Of a stretch of 64,000 nt of DNA, positions 44,976 through 50,038 are shown piece after piece. The notes beneath the pieces are model-generated. The model did not search any database. It saw only the letters and a list, made by a program, of their open reading frames with translations, and was not told the DNA's origin. The stretch is taken from the NCBI RefSeq assembly GCF_003073135.1, contig NZ_PGDQ01000001.1:1-64000 (forward strand). The letters are read 5' to 3'. Numbering within the stretch: the first letter of the stretch is position 1; the number at the start of each line of letters is the position of its first letter. A program made the translations under genes and the position numbers. The stretch comes from Euzebya rosea (GTDB lineage: Bacteria; Actinomycetota; Nitriliruptoria; Euzebyales; Euzebyaceae).

Positions 44976-45051
44976 GTGTCGAACCTGTGACGTCGGAGGC
45001 CAATGAGCCACTACGGGCGTGCGAACGAACGATACGACTCGCAGATGGGAG

Positions 45052-45057
45052 TAGCCT
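45052..45057 (+). promoter_or_regulatory. -10 box of the kinase/CopCD operon
   Basis: TAGCCT lies 35 bases before the ATG at 45093. AGGGGA at 45076-45081 is the ribosome site. Confidence 0.4.
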
Positions 45058-45092
45058 GCGTGTACGACATTCTTCAGGGGACTGCCCTACCG

Positions 45093-46748
45093 ATGACCGA
45101 CATCCCGTACTCGCCGGACGAGCCGGACCCGGACTGGGTCCGTTTCGCCATGCCGGACGACTTCGTCGACGCCGTGAGGGTCGGGCGAGGTGGCTTCGGC
45201 TACGTCTTCAGGGCCCGAGAGCTCTCGCTGTCGCGGACCGTCGCCATCAAGGTCCTGAACCAGCCCAGCTCGACGGAGAAGGCCGACCAGAAGTTCACCC
45301 GCGAGCTGCAGGCCATGGGCACGCTCGCCGGCCACCCCCACATCATCACCGTCTACACATGGGGCAAGACGTCAGGCGGGTACCCCTACATCGTCATGGC
45401 GTACATGCCCGGCGGGTCCCTGAAGGACCTCGTCGACACCCAGGGCGTCATGGCCTGGCCCGACGCGTTCGCGGCGGGCATCAAGGTCGCAGGCGCGCTG
45501 GAGACCGCCCATCGGGCCGGCATCCTGCACCGCGACATCAAGCCCGAGAACATCCTGCTCAACGGGTTCGGCGAACCGTCCCTCGGTGACTTCGGCATCG
45601 CCCGTATCACCGGTGGAACCGAGACCGCCACCGGCTCGATCACCGGCTCGTTGTCGCACGTGGCGCCCGAGGTGCTGGAGGGCAACCGTCCCACCGCGTC
45701 CGCCGACGTCTACTCCATGGCGTCCACCCTGTACGCGCTGGTGCAGGGCCGTCCGGCCTTCGCCAGCGAGGGGGACGAGACGCTGACGCCGATGCTGGCC
45801 CGCATCCTCCTCAACCCGATGCCCCCCGTCACCGCCCAGGAGGTCCCGCCGGACGTCATCGCGCTGATCGAGCAGGGTCTGGCCAAGAAGCCCGAGGACC
45901 GGTACCCGTCGGTCGAGGCCTTCGGCAACGCCATGGCCGACGTCCTGTCCGCCCATGGCCTCCGCGCCCCCGGCATGCTGATCCGGGGAGACGCCGACGA
46001 CGAGGTGTCCGCCTCGGGGGCCAGGACCGGCGAGTTCACGGCCCCGGGTGTCCGGGTCGGCGACCTGCCGACCGTCGACCGGCAGCCGGTGGTCCAGGCC
46101 AGCGGCTCGACGACCGGTGAGGGGCTGCTGGTCGGGGCCGCGGCGGCCGAAGCGGGCGCGCCACCCACCCACCGGGTCAGCGAGTCGATCCTGCCACCGA
46201 CCACTCCGCCCGTCCCGCCTGCCGACCCCTCCTCCCGGCGCGGGCTGTTCATCGGCATCGCCGCCGTGCTCGCCGCGGCGGTCATCGGTGTCGTCGGCGT
46301 GGTCGCCCTCGGCGGTGACGACTCGGTCGCCAACGACGACCCGACCCCCACGGAGTCGGTCAGCGCGAGCGAGACCGAGCCCTCCGAGGACGACGGAACC
46401 CCGTCGGAGTCCGAGACCGACTCCGTGAAGGAGGGCACGAACGGCCTGGTCATCCCGACGGAGTCCGAGACGCCGACGGAGACCGCCACCCCCACCGAGA
46501 GCGCGACCGCGACGGAGGTCCCGGTCGTGGAGACCGTCGAGCCGGCTCCCCAGCCGCAGGCGCCGCCACCGGCGCCGCCGCCTCCGCCACCCCCGCCACC
46601 CCCTCCACCGCCGCCGCCGCCTCCACCACCGCCGCCTCCACCGCCGCCGCCTCCACCACCACCGCCACCACCGCCTCCACCACCACCACCCCCACCGCCT
46701 CCACCTCCACCCCCACCTCCACCGCCCCCGACGTCGTCGGCTGACTGA
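45093..46748 (+). CDS. Membrane Ser/Thr protein kinase with 52-proline tail
   Basis: 551 residues. The kinase domain (about 20-290) is complete: VRVGRGGFGYVFRA loop, Lys53 in VAIK, HRDIKPEN (His146-Asp148), DFGIAR and APEVLEG, so it should be active. A Pro/Thr juxtamembrane region precedes one membrane helix (about 387-408, GIAAVLAAAVIGVVGVVALG). The outer tail is Glu/Thr/Ser-rich and ends in PPPA plus 52 consecutive prolines (495-546) and TSSAD. There are no PASTA repeats. The stop overlaps the CopC-CopD gene by one base (TGATG). Start 45093 is preferred to the longer ORF because of the ribosome site. Confidence 0.88.
   Translation: MTDIPYSPDEPDPDWVRFAMPDDFVDAVRVGRGGFGYVFRARELSLSRTVAIKVLNQPSSTEKADQKFTRELQAMGTLAGHPHIITVYTWGKTSGGYPYIVMAYMPGGSLKDLVDTQGVMAWPDAFAAGIKVAGALETAHRAGILHRDIKPENILLNGFGEPSLGDFGIARITGGTETATGSITGSLSHVAPEVLEGNRPTASADVYSMASTLYALVQGRPAFASEGDETLTPMLARILLNPMPPVTAQEVPPDVIALIEQGLAKKPEDRYPSVEAFGNAMADVLSAHGLRAPGMLIRGDADDEVSASGARTGEFTAPGVRVGDLPTVDRQPVVQASGSTTGEGLLVGAAAAEAGAPPTHRVSESILPPTTPPVPPADPSSRRGLFIGIAAVLAAAVIGVVGVVALGGDDSVANDDPTPTESVSASETEPSEDDGTPSESETDSVKEGTNGLVIPTESETPTETATPTESATATEVPVVETVEPAPQPQAPPPAPPPPPPPPPPPPPPPPPPPPPPPPPPPPPPPPPPPPPPPPPPPPPPPPPPPPTSSAD
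46575..46730. repeat. CCN codon run encoding 52 prolines
   Basis: 156 bases of consecutive Pro codons mixing CCG, CCT, CCA and CCC. The codon mixture shows it is not a pure slipped trinucleotide array. Confidence 0.9.
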
Positions 46749-49024
46749 TGGTGCGGTCGCCGGTGTCCACGGGGCGTGTGGGCCGGCTCGTGCTGGCCCT
46801 GGTCCTGGCCACGGCCGGGCTGGCCCTGACAGCGGGGCCGGCCCGTGCCCACACCTCGCTGGTCGCGTCGTCCCCGGCGACGGGGGAACGGCTGGCCTAC
46901 TCGCCAGACGAGATCGTCCTGACGTTCGCCACCGCGGTCGACCCCCGCACGGTCACCGCCGAGCTGCGCAGCGCCGACGGTGACGTCGTCGCCGTCCAGC
47001 CGCTCTCGGGCGAGGCGGGCGAGACCACCGTGGTGGCCTTCGGCGTTCCCCGCCTGCCGCACGCCGTCTACGGACTGGCGTGGCAGTCGATCGGGGACGA
47101 CGGCCACCGGGTCCTCGGCGAGGTCCTCTTCGGCGTCGGCACGGAGGTCGGCGGGACGACGAGCGTGGCCGGCGGGGCCACCCTGACCGCGAGGACGCTG
47201 GACACGGCCGGACTGGCCCTCCGGATCGCCTGGTACGTCGCCCTCGCCCTCCTCGCGGGTGCGGCCGCGGTGGGGCACGCAGGACTGGCCGGCCGGATCA
47301 CCCGACGCCGGATCGGCGGGTTGCTCCTCGCCAGCGCCGTCGTGGCGCTCGGCCGCGGTGGGGTGGCGCTGGCGGTCCTGCTGGAGGCCGGCGCCGGCGA
47401 CCTCGCCTGGACCTCACGCGGCACGGTGGGGTTCGCCGCCGTCGGCGTGCTCCTCGGGCTGCTCGCGATCGGGAGCACACGAACGGGGGCACGGACCACC
47501 GGCCGCATCCCCACGACCCCGGCGCTGGTCGCGCTGGTCGTCGCCGTCGTGGGCGGGACCCTCGCCGGACATGCCCTCTCCCGTGAGGATCCCTTGCTCG
47601 CGGTCACCTTCGGCATCCTCCACCTGGGCGCTGCCGCGGCCTGGACCGGCCCGCTGCTCGTGATGTTGCTCGTCGCCGGCACTCCGGCATGGCGAGCGCT
47701 GGACCGTGAAGAACGCACCCTGCAGCTGCGGGCATCGCTGCGTCGGATGGTCCCCGTCGCCGGGTGGTCCCTGGCGGTCGTCGGGGCCACCGGCCTGCTG
47801 CTGGCTGCGCGGGCCTGGTCGGGGATGGAGGGCGGGGTGTTGGTCGCGCTGGTCCTCAAGGCCGTGATCGTGGTCGGTGTCGCCGTGCCGCTCGGCCTGT
47901 GGCACCACCGGACACGGGAGGGGTGGGCCGACGTGCCACGCACCGCCCGCGTCGAGGCGCTGGGGCTGGTCGTGGCGCTCGTGCTGGGCGCCGTGCTGGT
48001 CGGCTGGGACCCCGGCTGGGGCCAGGGGACCGGGGGGCTGGACCCGGCCGTCGCCGCCGTGCTGGACGGAACCGCGGACGACCCGACCGTCTGCCGGGAC
48101 CTGGAGGTCGGCCGGGGCGCCTGCTACCGCTCGACCCTGTCGACGATCCTGGCGACCCAGGGACCGCAGGCCGCCATCGACGCGGCCGTCGCCGCGCAGG
48201 CCGTGGACGGCTACGTGGCGGAGAACTGCCATCAGGTCGTGCACGACATCGGCAACGACGCAGCGGAGCAGATCGAGGACATGGCCGACGCCCTGTCCGT
48301 CGACGGGTCGGCCTGCTGGTCGGGGTACTTCCACGGCTTCATCGAGGCCCGCCTGGCGGAGATCGACGACGACGCGCTCTCCGGGCAGCTGCCCACCTTC
48401 TGCGACGGGGCGGCCGACCCCCGCTACTCCTTCACCCACTACAACTGCCTGCACGGCCTCGGCCACGGGCTGATGCTGCGGGTCGACGCCGACCTGTTCG
48501 AGGCGTTGCCGTTGTGCCGTGACCTCGAGGAGTTCTGGCTGGTCCGGTCCTGCGCCAGCGGCGCGTTCATGGAGAACGTCATGGCTGCCCAGCAGGGGCT
48601 GACCACGCCCGGCGTACCCGCCGACGACCTGCGATATCCCTGCACCGAGGTCGACGACGACCTGGCCGAGGACTGCTGGATGATGCAGACATCGATGATC
48701 ATCTGGCGGCTCGGCGGCGACATCCCCGGAGCCTTCGAGTGGTGTGACAGCGTCGAGGGGCTCAACCGGACGGCGTGTTATCGCTCGATGGGCCGCGACA
48801 TCTCCTCCATCGCCGCACTGGACCCCGACGGCGTGATCGAGCGGTGCAGCATGGGATCGGCCGACGCGGCCCACTGGTGCATCGAGGGTGCGGCGTCCAA
48901 CGCCGTGTACGAGACCTCCGCACGCGAGTCCGCCGACGCGCTGTGCGCCGCCGTGCAGCCGGACTGGACCGGTCCCTGCGAGGCAACCCGTGACCAGGCG
49001 CTGGCCACGGTGGCGCTCGGTTGA
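46748..49024 (+). CDS. CopC-CopD copper protein with C-terminal Cys/His-rich repeat domain
   Basis: 758 residues, three parts. (1) CopC domain, 35-132: signal cleavage after ARA leaves His35 as the mature N-terminus, and Asp118/His120 (DDGH) complete the Cu(II) site known from CopC. (2) CopD/YcnJ-like membrane domain, about 150-425, with some eight helices. (3) An extracytoplasmic domain, about 440-755, with 16 cysteines in nine repeats (449-744) and clustered histidines (CHQVVHDIGNDA, WSGYFHGFIEAR, CLHGLGHGLM). I cannot assign part 3 to a named family. It is probably a copper importer or sensor fused to a metal-binding or disulfide domain. Its start overlaps the kinase stop. Confidence 0.85.
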   Translation: MVRSPVSTGRVGRLVLALVLATAGLALTAGPARAHTSLVASSPATGERLAYSPDEIVLTFATAVDPRTVTAELRSADGDVVAVQPLSGEAGETTVVAFGVPRLPHAVYGLAWQSIGDDGHRVLGEVLFGVGTEVGGTTSVAGGATLTARTLDTAGLALRIAWYVALALLAGAAAVGHAGLAGRITRRRIGGLLLASAVVALGRGGVALAVLLEAGAGDLAWTSRGTVGFAAVGVLLGLLAIGSTRTGARTTGRIPTTPALVALVVAVVGGTLAGHALSREDPLLAVTFGILHLGAAAAWTGPLLVMLLVAGTPAWRALDREERTLQLRASLRRMVPVAGWSLAVVGATGLLLAARAWSGMEGGVLVALVLKAVIVVGVAVPLGLWHHRTREGWADVPRTARVEALGLVVALVLGAVLVGWDPGWGQGTGGLDPAVAAVLDGTADDPTVCRDLEVGRGACYRSTLSTILATQGPQAAIDAAVAAQAVDGYVAENCHQVVHDIGNDAAEQIEDMADALSVDGSACWSGYFHGFIEARLAEIDDDALSGQLPTFCDGAADPRYSFTHYNCLHGLGHGLMLRVDADLFEALPLCRDLEEFWLVRSCASGAFMENVMAAQQGLTTPGVPADDLRYPCTEVDDDLAEDCWMMQTSMIIWRLGGDIPGAFEWCDSVEGLNRTACYRSMGRDISSIAALDPDGVIERCSMGSADAAHWCIEGAASNAVYETSARESADALCAAVQPDWTGPCEATRDQALATVALG

Positions 49025-49069
49025 GGTCCTGGGGTTCGAAAGGGTTTCGGTCCGGGGTAGACCTTGGAC

Positions 49070-50038
49070 GTGATCACTTTCTCCTGCGACCGCTGCACCC
49101 AGCTGGTCTTCTTCGACAACACCTCCTGCACCCGCTGCGGCACCGACCTGGTCCTCGACCCCGCGACGTGGGCGATGCGCTCGGCAACGGCCGATGACGT
49201 GCGGTGCGCCAACCGCGAGCACGGCTGCCCGTGGGTCACCGAGAACGGCGAGCAGTACTGCCGATCCTGCCGGCTGACCCGCACCCGCCCCTCCCTGGAC
49301 GACCCGGAGATCGCGGCGGAATGGCGCCGCGCGGAAGCGGCCAAGCGCCGGCTGGTCTTCCAGCTGGAGCGCATGGGCCTCGACGTGCAGGGGGCCACGT
49401 TCGACCTGCTGTCCAGCCGGGACGAACAGGTCATCACCGGCCACGCCGACGGGGTCATCACCCTGGACCTGGCCGAGGCCGACGACGTCGAGCGCATCCG
49501 CATCCGCGAGCAGATGGACGAGCCCTACCGCACCCTGCTCGGGCACTTCCGCCACGAGATCGGCCACTGGCTGTGGACCCGGTACGTCGACGGGTCCGAG
49601 GTGATCGATGACTTCCGACGGGTGTTCGGCGACGAGCGGGCCGACTACGGCGAGGCCCTGGAGGCCCACTACGACGCCGAACCGCCGGAGGGCTGGGCCG
49701 ACTCCTACGTCTCGACCTACGCCACCGCCCACCCGTGGGAGGACTTCGCCGAGACCGTCGCCCACTGGCTGCACATCACCGACGTCCTGGAGACCGCGGG
49801 GGCGTTCGGCGTCAGCGTCGACGGCGCGCACGAGGTGCTGACCTCCGACCCCGACGACGCAGAACCGGACAACGACACCATGCCGGAGCTGATCCAGGCC
49901 TGGCTGCCGTTGACCTACGCCCTCAACGCCATCAACCGCTCCATGGGCCATGACGACCTGTACCCGTTCGTGCTCGCCCCGACGGTCATGTCCAAGCTCG
50001 GCTGGGTCCACCGCCGCCTGACCGACGTCTCGGCCTGA
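49070..50038 (+). CDS. Zinc-ribbon putative metallopeptidase
   Basis: 322 residues. The N-terminus (1-70) is a zinc-ribbon region with four Cys pairs: CDRC, CTRC, C46/C53, CRSC. The middle has an HExxH zinc-peptidase motif, HFRHEIGHWLWTRYV (His162-His166). Downstream DDFRRVFGDERADYGEALEA and TYATAHPWEDFAETVAHWLH supply the third ligand region. This matches the putative zinc-binding metallopeptidase family of about 330 residues (PF15887 type), whose substrate is unknown. No signal peptide, so cytoplasmic. GTG 49070 is preferred to TTG 49064; TAGACC lies 6 bases upstream. Confidence 0.82.
   Translation: MITFSCDRCTQLVFFDNTSCTRCGTDLVLDPATWAMRSATADDVRCANREHGCPWVTENGEQYCRSCRLTRTRPSLDDPEIAAEWRRAEAAKRRLVFQLERMGLDVQGATFDLLSSRDEQVITGHADGVITLDLAEADDVERIRIREQMDEPYRTLLGHFRHEIGHWLWTRYVDGSEVIDDFRRVFGDERADYGEALEAHYDAEPPEGWADSYVSTYATAHPWEDFAETVAHWLHITDVLETAGAFGVSVDGAHEVLTSDPDDAEPDNDTMPELIQAWLPLTYALNAINRSMGHDDLYPFVLAPTVMSKLGWVHRRLTDVSA

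Follow-up and report, generated by a model that had tools for sequence, protein, structure and literature searches.

A candidate copper-handling Cys/His helical-repeat domain at the C terminus of a CopC-CopD protein of Euzebya rosea

The CopC-CopD system is known, but one CopC-CopD protein of Euzebya rosea ends in a Cys- and His-rich domain whose family is undescribed in the resources searched (Pfam, NCBIfam, PHROGs, and the PDB) and which has no solved fold relative. What is this domain, and what might it do beside a copper importer? The gene lies in a 64,000-nucleotide stretch of the E. rosea genome, the whole of which we refer to as the window (Table 1). A preliminary description of the sequence had placed nine Cys-containing repeats at 48092-48979, had read them as a disulfide-stapled helical solenoid with a metal-binding core, and had linked them to copper through the fusion. 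Because 48092 is the first base of the C449 codon and 48979 is the last base of the C744 codon, these coordinates enclose the Cys-bearing core of a domain of approximately 323 residues.

Table 1. Coordinates of the CopC-CopD gene, its domains and repeat units, and the gene upstream
Feature	Coordinates	Strand	Basis or details
Ser/Thr kinase gene	45003..46748	+	PF00069, E 2e-47
Whole gene, 758 aa: signal peptide, CopC, CopD-like 8-TM part, Cys/His nine-hairpin domain	46748..49024	+	
Signal peptide	46748..46849	+	Hydrophobic stretch 14-32
CopC domain, residues 35-130	46850..47137	+	PF04234
CopD-like membrane part, eight hydrophobic segments	47216..48007	+	Hydropathy, loop charges
New Cys/His domain, nine helical hairpins, 323 residues (436-758)	48053..49021	+	AlphaFold2; no family, sequence, or fold match
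Unit 1	48083..48160	+	C449-C459, CX9C
Unit 2	48164..48271	+	C494; H495, H499 of the five-His set
Unit 3	48281..48358	+	C523; H529, E533 (HxxxE)
Unit 4	48368..48481	+	C552-C567; H569, H573 (HGxGHG)
Unit 5	48494..48592	+	C590-C602; M608, E609
Unit 6	48635..48709	+	C632-C643
Unit 7	48722..48811	+	C666-C677; R683, D684
Unit 8	48824..48916	+	C700-C711
Unit 9	48926..49015	+	C733-C744

Architecture and setting of the gene

The N-terminal part of the protein is a recognizable CopC domain. Residues 35-130 match PF04234 with 52.5 bits, compared to a curated cut-off of 23.3 (E 1e-13), and nine solved CopC-type sequences match this part of the protein. Cleavage of the signal peptide is predicted between ARA and H35, which would leave His as the mature N terminus, as in CopC histidine braces. 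H35 follows an AxA-type signal end, is invariant, and is the residue at which the phmmer alignment to solved CopC chains begins. In an alignment of CopC-CopD fusions, H35, D118, and H120 are invariant across the fused clade, and we regard them as the putative Cu(II) brace residues of this CopC.

In the membrane part, hydropathy analysis places Lys/Arg-rich loops between segments 1 and 2, 3 and 4, 5 and 6, and 7 and 8. With these loops inside, the N-terminal CopC and the C-terminal domain both face outside, and an extracytoplasmic placement of the Cys/His domain is thus strongly supported by the loop charges. H275 and H292 are invariant in the CopD-like part, to which relatives align over its whole length. 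The CopD profile PF05425 matched 10 of 38 N-terminal parts scanned, and the window protein on its own gave no match. The N-terminal 435 residues are assigned to the CopC family (PF04234) and, for the membrane part, probably to the CopD family (PF05425); the C-terminal domain lies outside both.

The same architecture is found in the other three genomes of the genus and in 13 further sequences from Acidimicrobiia and Euzebyaceae. Six CopC proteins are encoded in the E. rosea genome (G000; contigs C3, C4, and C5), and only the one in the window has the Cys/His domain, which suggests that this protein has a specialised role. The upstream kinase gene overlaps the start of the CopC-CopD gene by one base (TGATG) and adjoins it in three of the four genus members. 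The two genes are possibly co-translated; the kinase is not part of the domain. The kinase ends in a very long C-terminal poly-proline tail. Directly downstream, at 49064-50038 (+), is a gene for a zinc ribbon and putative zinc metallopeptidase (PF15887, PF10005), which adjoins the CopC-CopD gene in just one other genus member.

The closest architectural parallel is YcnJ of Bacillus subtilis, a CopC-CopD-YtkA protein (PMC13344008; architecture also PMC8424229). The copper residues of its CopC and CopD parts support haem-copper oxidases when copper is limiting, and its YtkA domain contributes to the assembly of CuA (PMC13344008). Like YcnJ, the E. rosea protein has CopC, a CopD membrane part, and then a C-terminal extracytoplasmic accessory domain, and the CopC brace His is kept. 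Unlike YtkA, which is another family, the new domain is all-helical, with 16 Cys, five invariant His, and no counterpart in Pfam; no YtkA was found in residues 436-758, for which Pfam gave no match at E 1.

Predicted fold, repeat units, and cysteine pairing

AlphaFold2, run with a 68-sequence alignment, predicted an all-helical domain with a mean pLDDT of 93.6 and a pTM of 0.90. Its helices form nine A-B hairpins on the units first described, with a loop as the A part of unit 6, and a separate prediction for the core (units 2-5) gave a pLDDT of 93.3. The repeat register is also recovered without its most conspicuous residues: when Cys columns were masked, only 7 of 2000 random re-registrations matched or beat it in profile similarity. 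The nine repeat units of the preliminary description are therefore real.

All 16 Cys of the protein are in this domain (449, 459, 494, 523, 552, 567, 590, 602, 632, 643, 666, 677, 700, 711, 733, and 744), and the CopC-CopD part has none. Their spacings had been listed correctly, as CX9C, CX14C, CX11C, and four times CX10C, with one Cys each in units 2 and 3. Cys makes up 5.0% of the domain compared to 0.8% in neighbouring genes, an approximately six-fold enrichment (binomial P about 1.5e-8). A chance Cys-rich sequence or a degenerate, functionless tail would have nothing in its favour except the absence of a library match. This enrichment, the open frames, the high-confidence fold, and conservation in over 100 sequences from bacteria and archaea already refute that reading, to which we attach practically no probability.

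Variation among relatives indicates how the Cys residues are paired. In unit 7, all five members that lack either C231 or C242 (domain numbering; C666 and C677 in the full-length protein) lack both, and no single losses occur for C265/C276 or C298/C309. C59 and C88 (C494 and C523) are lost jointly in 13 members in which both columns are readable, compared to one single loss, the remaining cases involving alignment gaps. Eleven of these 13 have a new Cys pair of regular spacing in unit 3; for example, LCPVDYNYGCQHG replaces the CWSGYYHG type. Joint loss supports the disulfides. The Cys of units 2 and 3, for which no partner had been proposed, are most likely each other's partners, judging from their covariation; we rejected the possibility of free Cys in these two units. 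Apparently, then, eight disulfides hold the domain together. Each helix-loop-helix hairpin would be stapled from the end of its first part to the start of helix B, with units 2 and 3 sharing the C494-C523 disulfide instead of having their own staples.

We searched for known families and folds at several levels. The C-terminal domain had no match in Pfam or NCBIfam scans, residues 436-758 giving none in Pfam at E 1, and no credible match was obtained with 68 members in Pfam or 15 diverse members in NCBIfam. A PHROG scan returned only matches at E 0.1, which we judged to be chance, and sequence searches of the PDB with the domain returned none. The domain was absent from the phage and viral collections searched, and Foldseek against viral structures gave no significant match. 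A literature search for the motif HGLGHG retrieved just unrelated papers on kininogen and serum peptides. For structures, we counted a fold as known at a Foldseek E of 0.001 or less or a TM-score of 0.5 or more. Against the PDB, the best match of the full domain was at E 0.039, to ARM/TPR-type solenoids with TM-scores of about 0.2-0.28, and the best match of the core (units 2-5) was at E 0.95. The predicted fold is therefore an alpha-alpha repeat to which no solved structure in the PDB is closely related. No confident match to a characterised domain emerged from Pfam, NCBIfam, the PDB, or Foldseek, and the fold neither lacks repeats nor lacks Cys pairing, given the AlphaFold2 hairpins and the joint loss of Cys pairs; on both counts the preliminary description stands.

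Two kinds of helical protein invite comparison. Like alpha-solenoids (ARM, HEAT, TPR), which gave the best Foldseek matches, the domain consists of repeated helix pairs. Unlike them, it has a Cys ladder and a His set, and membership in these families was not supported by any Pfam repeat match or by the TM-scores. The description of a stapled helical repeat therefore holds, with "solenoid" as the nearest term for a weak Foldseek similarity. Proteins of the CHCH (twin CX9C) type likewise reside in an oxidising compartment and have helical hairpins whose stapling Cys are about ten residues apart, and some, such as Cox17, handle copper. However, a CHCH domain is one hairpin with two disulfides, compared to nine hairpins with about one disulfide each here. 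Pfam and Foldseek gave no support for CHCH identity, and the domain has one CX9C plus other spacings.

Distribution of the family and its conserved residues

Scanning genome contigs, with one genome per species, yielded 78 loci. Whole-genome searches covered 396 genomes from the phylum to which the window belongs and found the domain in 17; a broader model gave 27 of 396, about ten of which are weak partial matches judged to be chance. In a sample of CPR bacteria, 11 of 240 genomes had the domain, one of them in as many as nine copies, and in a sample of the Woesearchaeota phylum it was found in 1 of 148, that one being the source of the query. Weak partial matches, spanning about 70 residues, were treated as chance; they came from family f23 genomes (E 5e-4 to 2e-6) and from G049, where the frame is apparently unrelated. 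Lineages with the domain include Acidimicrobiia, Thermoleophilia, Rubrobacter, Patescibacteria, Woesearchaeota, Binatia, and Nitrospirota, among others, and distant relatives occur on a Kitasatospora plasmid and a Gemmatirosa plasmid. The domain and its Cys and His are kept in the other three genomes of the genus and in about 110 further sequences.

We aligned 114 related domains, which have a median identity of 30%. Five His residues in the pattern HxxxH...H...HxxxH (H60, H64, H94, H134, and H138 of the domain; H495, H499, H529, H569, and H573 of the full-length protein) are present in 111 of the 111 members with complete columns. The window protein has these five His and all 16 Cys and thus fits the family. 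Almost as conserved are E98 (Glu533; 85%), M173 (Met608; 94%), and E174 (Glu609; 86%), and Gln is the commonest substitute at the conserved Glu positions. The His cluster originally noticed in units 2-4 is confirmed, in that six of the seven His residues of the domain lie there and five are invariant in the family. On the B-helices of units 2-4, five of the conserved residues follow the unit Cys by a similar number of residues, and M173 and E174 are in unit 5. Given this similar register on neighbouring B-helices, the conserved residues can line one helix face. The metal-binding core proposed at the outset can accordingly be narrowed to a candidate metal centre of five invariant His on consecutive B-helices, as seen in the AlphaFold2 model and the alignment, and it is not confined to the fused protein in which it was first noted.

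Just a short N-terminal part precedes the domain in 76 of 123 open reading frames (by a crude sorting in which a few do carry cytochrome c). Most members lack CopC-CopD, and we therefore rejected the view of the domain as a CopC-CopD-specific appendage. Two CPR genomes (L146, 3495-14846; L147, 4288-18016) have six to seven divergent paralogues of the domain arranged in tandem, some with an N-terminal cupredoxin.

Fusion partners and possible functions

Repeated recruitment of copper and redox partners is the main functional evidence for the domain. Among 38 N-terminal parts, Pfam found cytochrome c in 14, CopC in 11, CopD in 10, and cupredoxin in 1. Cupredoxin_1 scored above cut-off at loci L060, L096, L097, L100, and L147:11694-13256 and just below it at L147:14302-15774; L125 has a C-terminal cupredoxin assigned by eye. 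Cupredoxin_1 is also found in the gene adjoining L031 (4959-5366). None of the seven fused cupredoxin stretches contains Cys, which excludes type-1 blue copper sites; they are probably His-only copper binders, to judge from their residues. A recurrent motif of this Cys-free subfamily is WPASD.HPTH ... HDH/HNH (the L031 neighbour; L060, L096, L097, L100, L125, and L147). In a maximum-likelihood tree, the CopC-CopD fusions form one clade (99/95), as do the cytochrome c fusions (100/99), and cupredoxin fusions are found in Rubrobacter-type and CPR branches and, for L125, in another part of the tree. Resolution at the deep forks is poor, and the tree includes flagged long branches; the cupredoxin fusions, at either end of the domain, would represent about three events. 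With cupredoxin fusions in separate branches and one clade each for the other two, partnering arose several times. The copper context proposed from the fusion to a copper importer is supported by CopC, CopD, and cupredoxin partners. The domain itself is not specific to CopC-CopD. Tallies of neighbouring genes over the members returned mostly unrelated genes, with no conserved copper operon or fixed haem-biogenesis neighbourhood, so the genomic context rests on the fusions. The exception is the distant relative on the Kitasatospora plasmid, which adjoins a gene for cytochrome c oxidase assembly and has CcsB, CopC, and another assembly gene no more than about 17 kb away; this setting also speaks for copper.

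The scaffold, the repeats, the paired Cys, the five-His conservation, and the copper and redox partners are well supported, and our preferred interpretation of them is an accessory copper-handling domain, in which a helical repeat laddered by disulfides would carry a five-His metal site and serve copper transfer or redox chemistry outside the membrane. We judge the chances of this interpretation to be about even. The B-helices of units 2-5 would present the five His together with the near-invariant Glu533, Met608, and Glu609, a set that is most simply read as binding one or two metal ions. CopC would bind Cu(II) outside and CopD would move copper, and the new domain, in the place that YtkA occupies in Bacillus YcnJ, would accept or donate copper, or change its redox state, at the five-His site. 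Metal binding by the His set, copper as its metal, and the direction of transfer between the domain and CopC/CopD are inferences. Members with a short N-terminal part count against the copper reading, since some come from CPR bacteria, whose metabolism is reduced, and so do the mostly unrelated neighbouring genes. A redox enzyme would account for the cytochrome c and reductase-like partners at least as well as copper handling does.

The main rival to the copper-domain reading is a redox metalloenzyme that uses electrons from cytochromes or reductases. Here the five His and two Glu would bind Cu or Fe in a mononuclear or dinuclear centre, whose reaction partner would be O2, peroxide, superoxide, or copper itself; the cytochrome c or reductase-like part would feed or drain electrons, and CopC-CopD would supply copper. 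The cytochrome c fusions noted above fit this arrangement, as do L031, in which a ferric-reductase-like membrane part, recognized by eye and without a Pfam match, is fused to the domain beside the cupredoxin gene, and L026, in which a cytochrome b5 gene adjoins the domain gene. Retention of His in every member with complete columns is typical of a catalytic site. The pattern HxxxH / HxxxE / HxxxH plus Glu also resembles hemerythrin-type di-metal centres, whose ligands are five His and two carboxylates, and the two may share a ligand set that is built of HxxxH and HxxxE and spread over adjacent helices. However, Pfam gave no hemerythrin match, and Foldseek linked the domain neither to hemerythrin nor to any four-helix di-metal fold. 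The Cys-free cupredoxins are not ordinary type-1 electron carriers, and CopC and CopD are metal handlers rather than known electron donors. We consider an oxidoreductase possible but tentative. A bolder form of it is a new fold with an unprecedented five-His, two-Glu di-metal redox centre, of copper or iron, on a disulfide-laddered repeat; this would be a new extracytoplasmic oxidoreductase class, which copper importers, cytochromes, and cupredoxins would each have acquired independently in bacteria and archaea, and we regard it as doubtful.

Alternatively, the domain could be an extracytoplasmic scaffold that binds haem, another ligand, or only proteins, with the His as haem ligands or structural residues and a link to haem or oxidase assembly instead of copper transfer. 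Alpha-solenoid-like folds often bind proteins, and the Foldseek matches are of this kind. Cytochrome and reductase-like partners would suit such a role, as would the proximity of the Kitasatospora relative to CcsB, a gene of cytochrome c biogenesis. Nevertheless, five invariant His plus Glu exceed the needs of one haem, the CopC-CopD and Cys-free cupredoxin partners point to copper, and the member loci share no set of haem-biogenesis neighbours. Haem binding is less likely than the redox metalloenzyme, and we hold the scaffold reading as a whole to be improbable.

If the domain binds copper, its five-His site would be a novel kind of extracytoplasmic copper site, and CopC-CopD proteins would have a further accessory domain in addition to YtkA. 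As an enzyme, the domain would provide a new metalloenzyme scaffold. The family is conserved and exported in lineages whose extramembrane copper and redox biology is poorly known, namely Patescibacteria, Woesearchaeota, Acidimicrobiia, and Thermoleophilia. Its repeated fusions make its role testable, and the complete conservation of the five His (111/111) names the residues to mutate.

Several loci have further features. The distant relative on Kitasatospora plasmid pKP058 (L164, 150000-185000) lies in a copper and oxidase-assembly island that also holds an M56/BlaI pair and two carbonic anhydrases. On a Saccharibacteria contig, a probable heliorhodopsin gene (L029, 3933-4712) is directly upstream of the domain gene; the locus was assigned by eye, and heliorhodopsin was one Pfam match among the neighbouring genes. 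The relative on the Gemmatirosa plasmid (L157, 5629-6888) has a His/Met-rich stretch (HNTPHDMPHAAAGGHASHEMH) ahead of the domain, which by its composition appears to be of the kind seen in metal-binding linkers.
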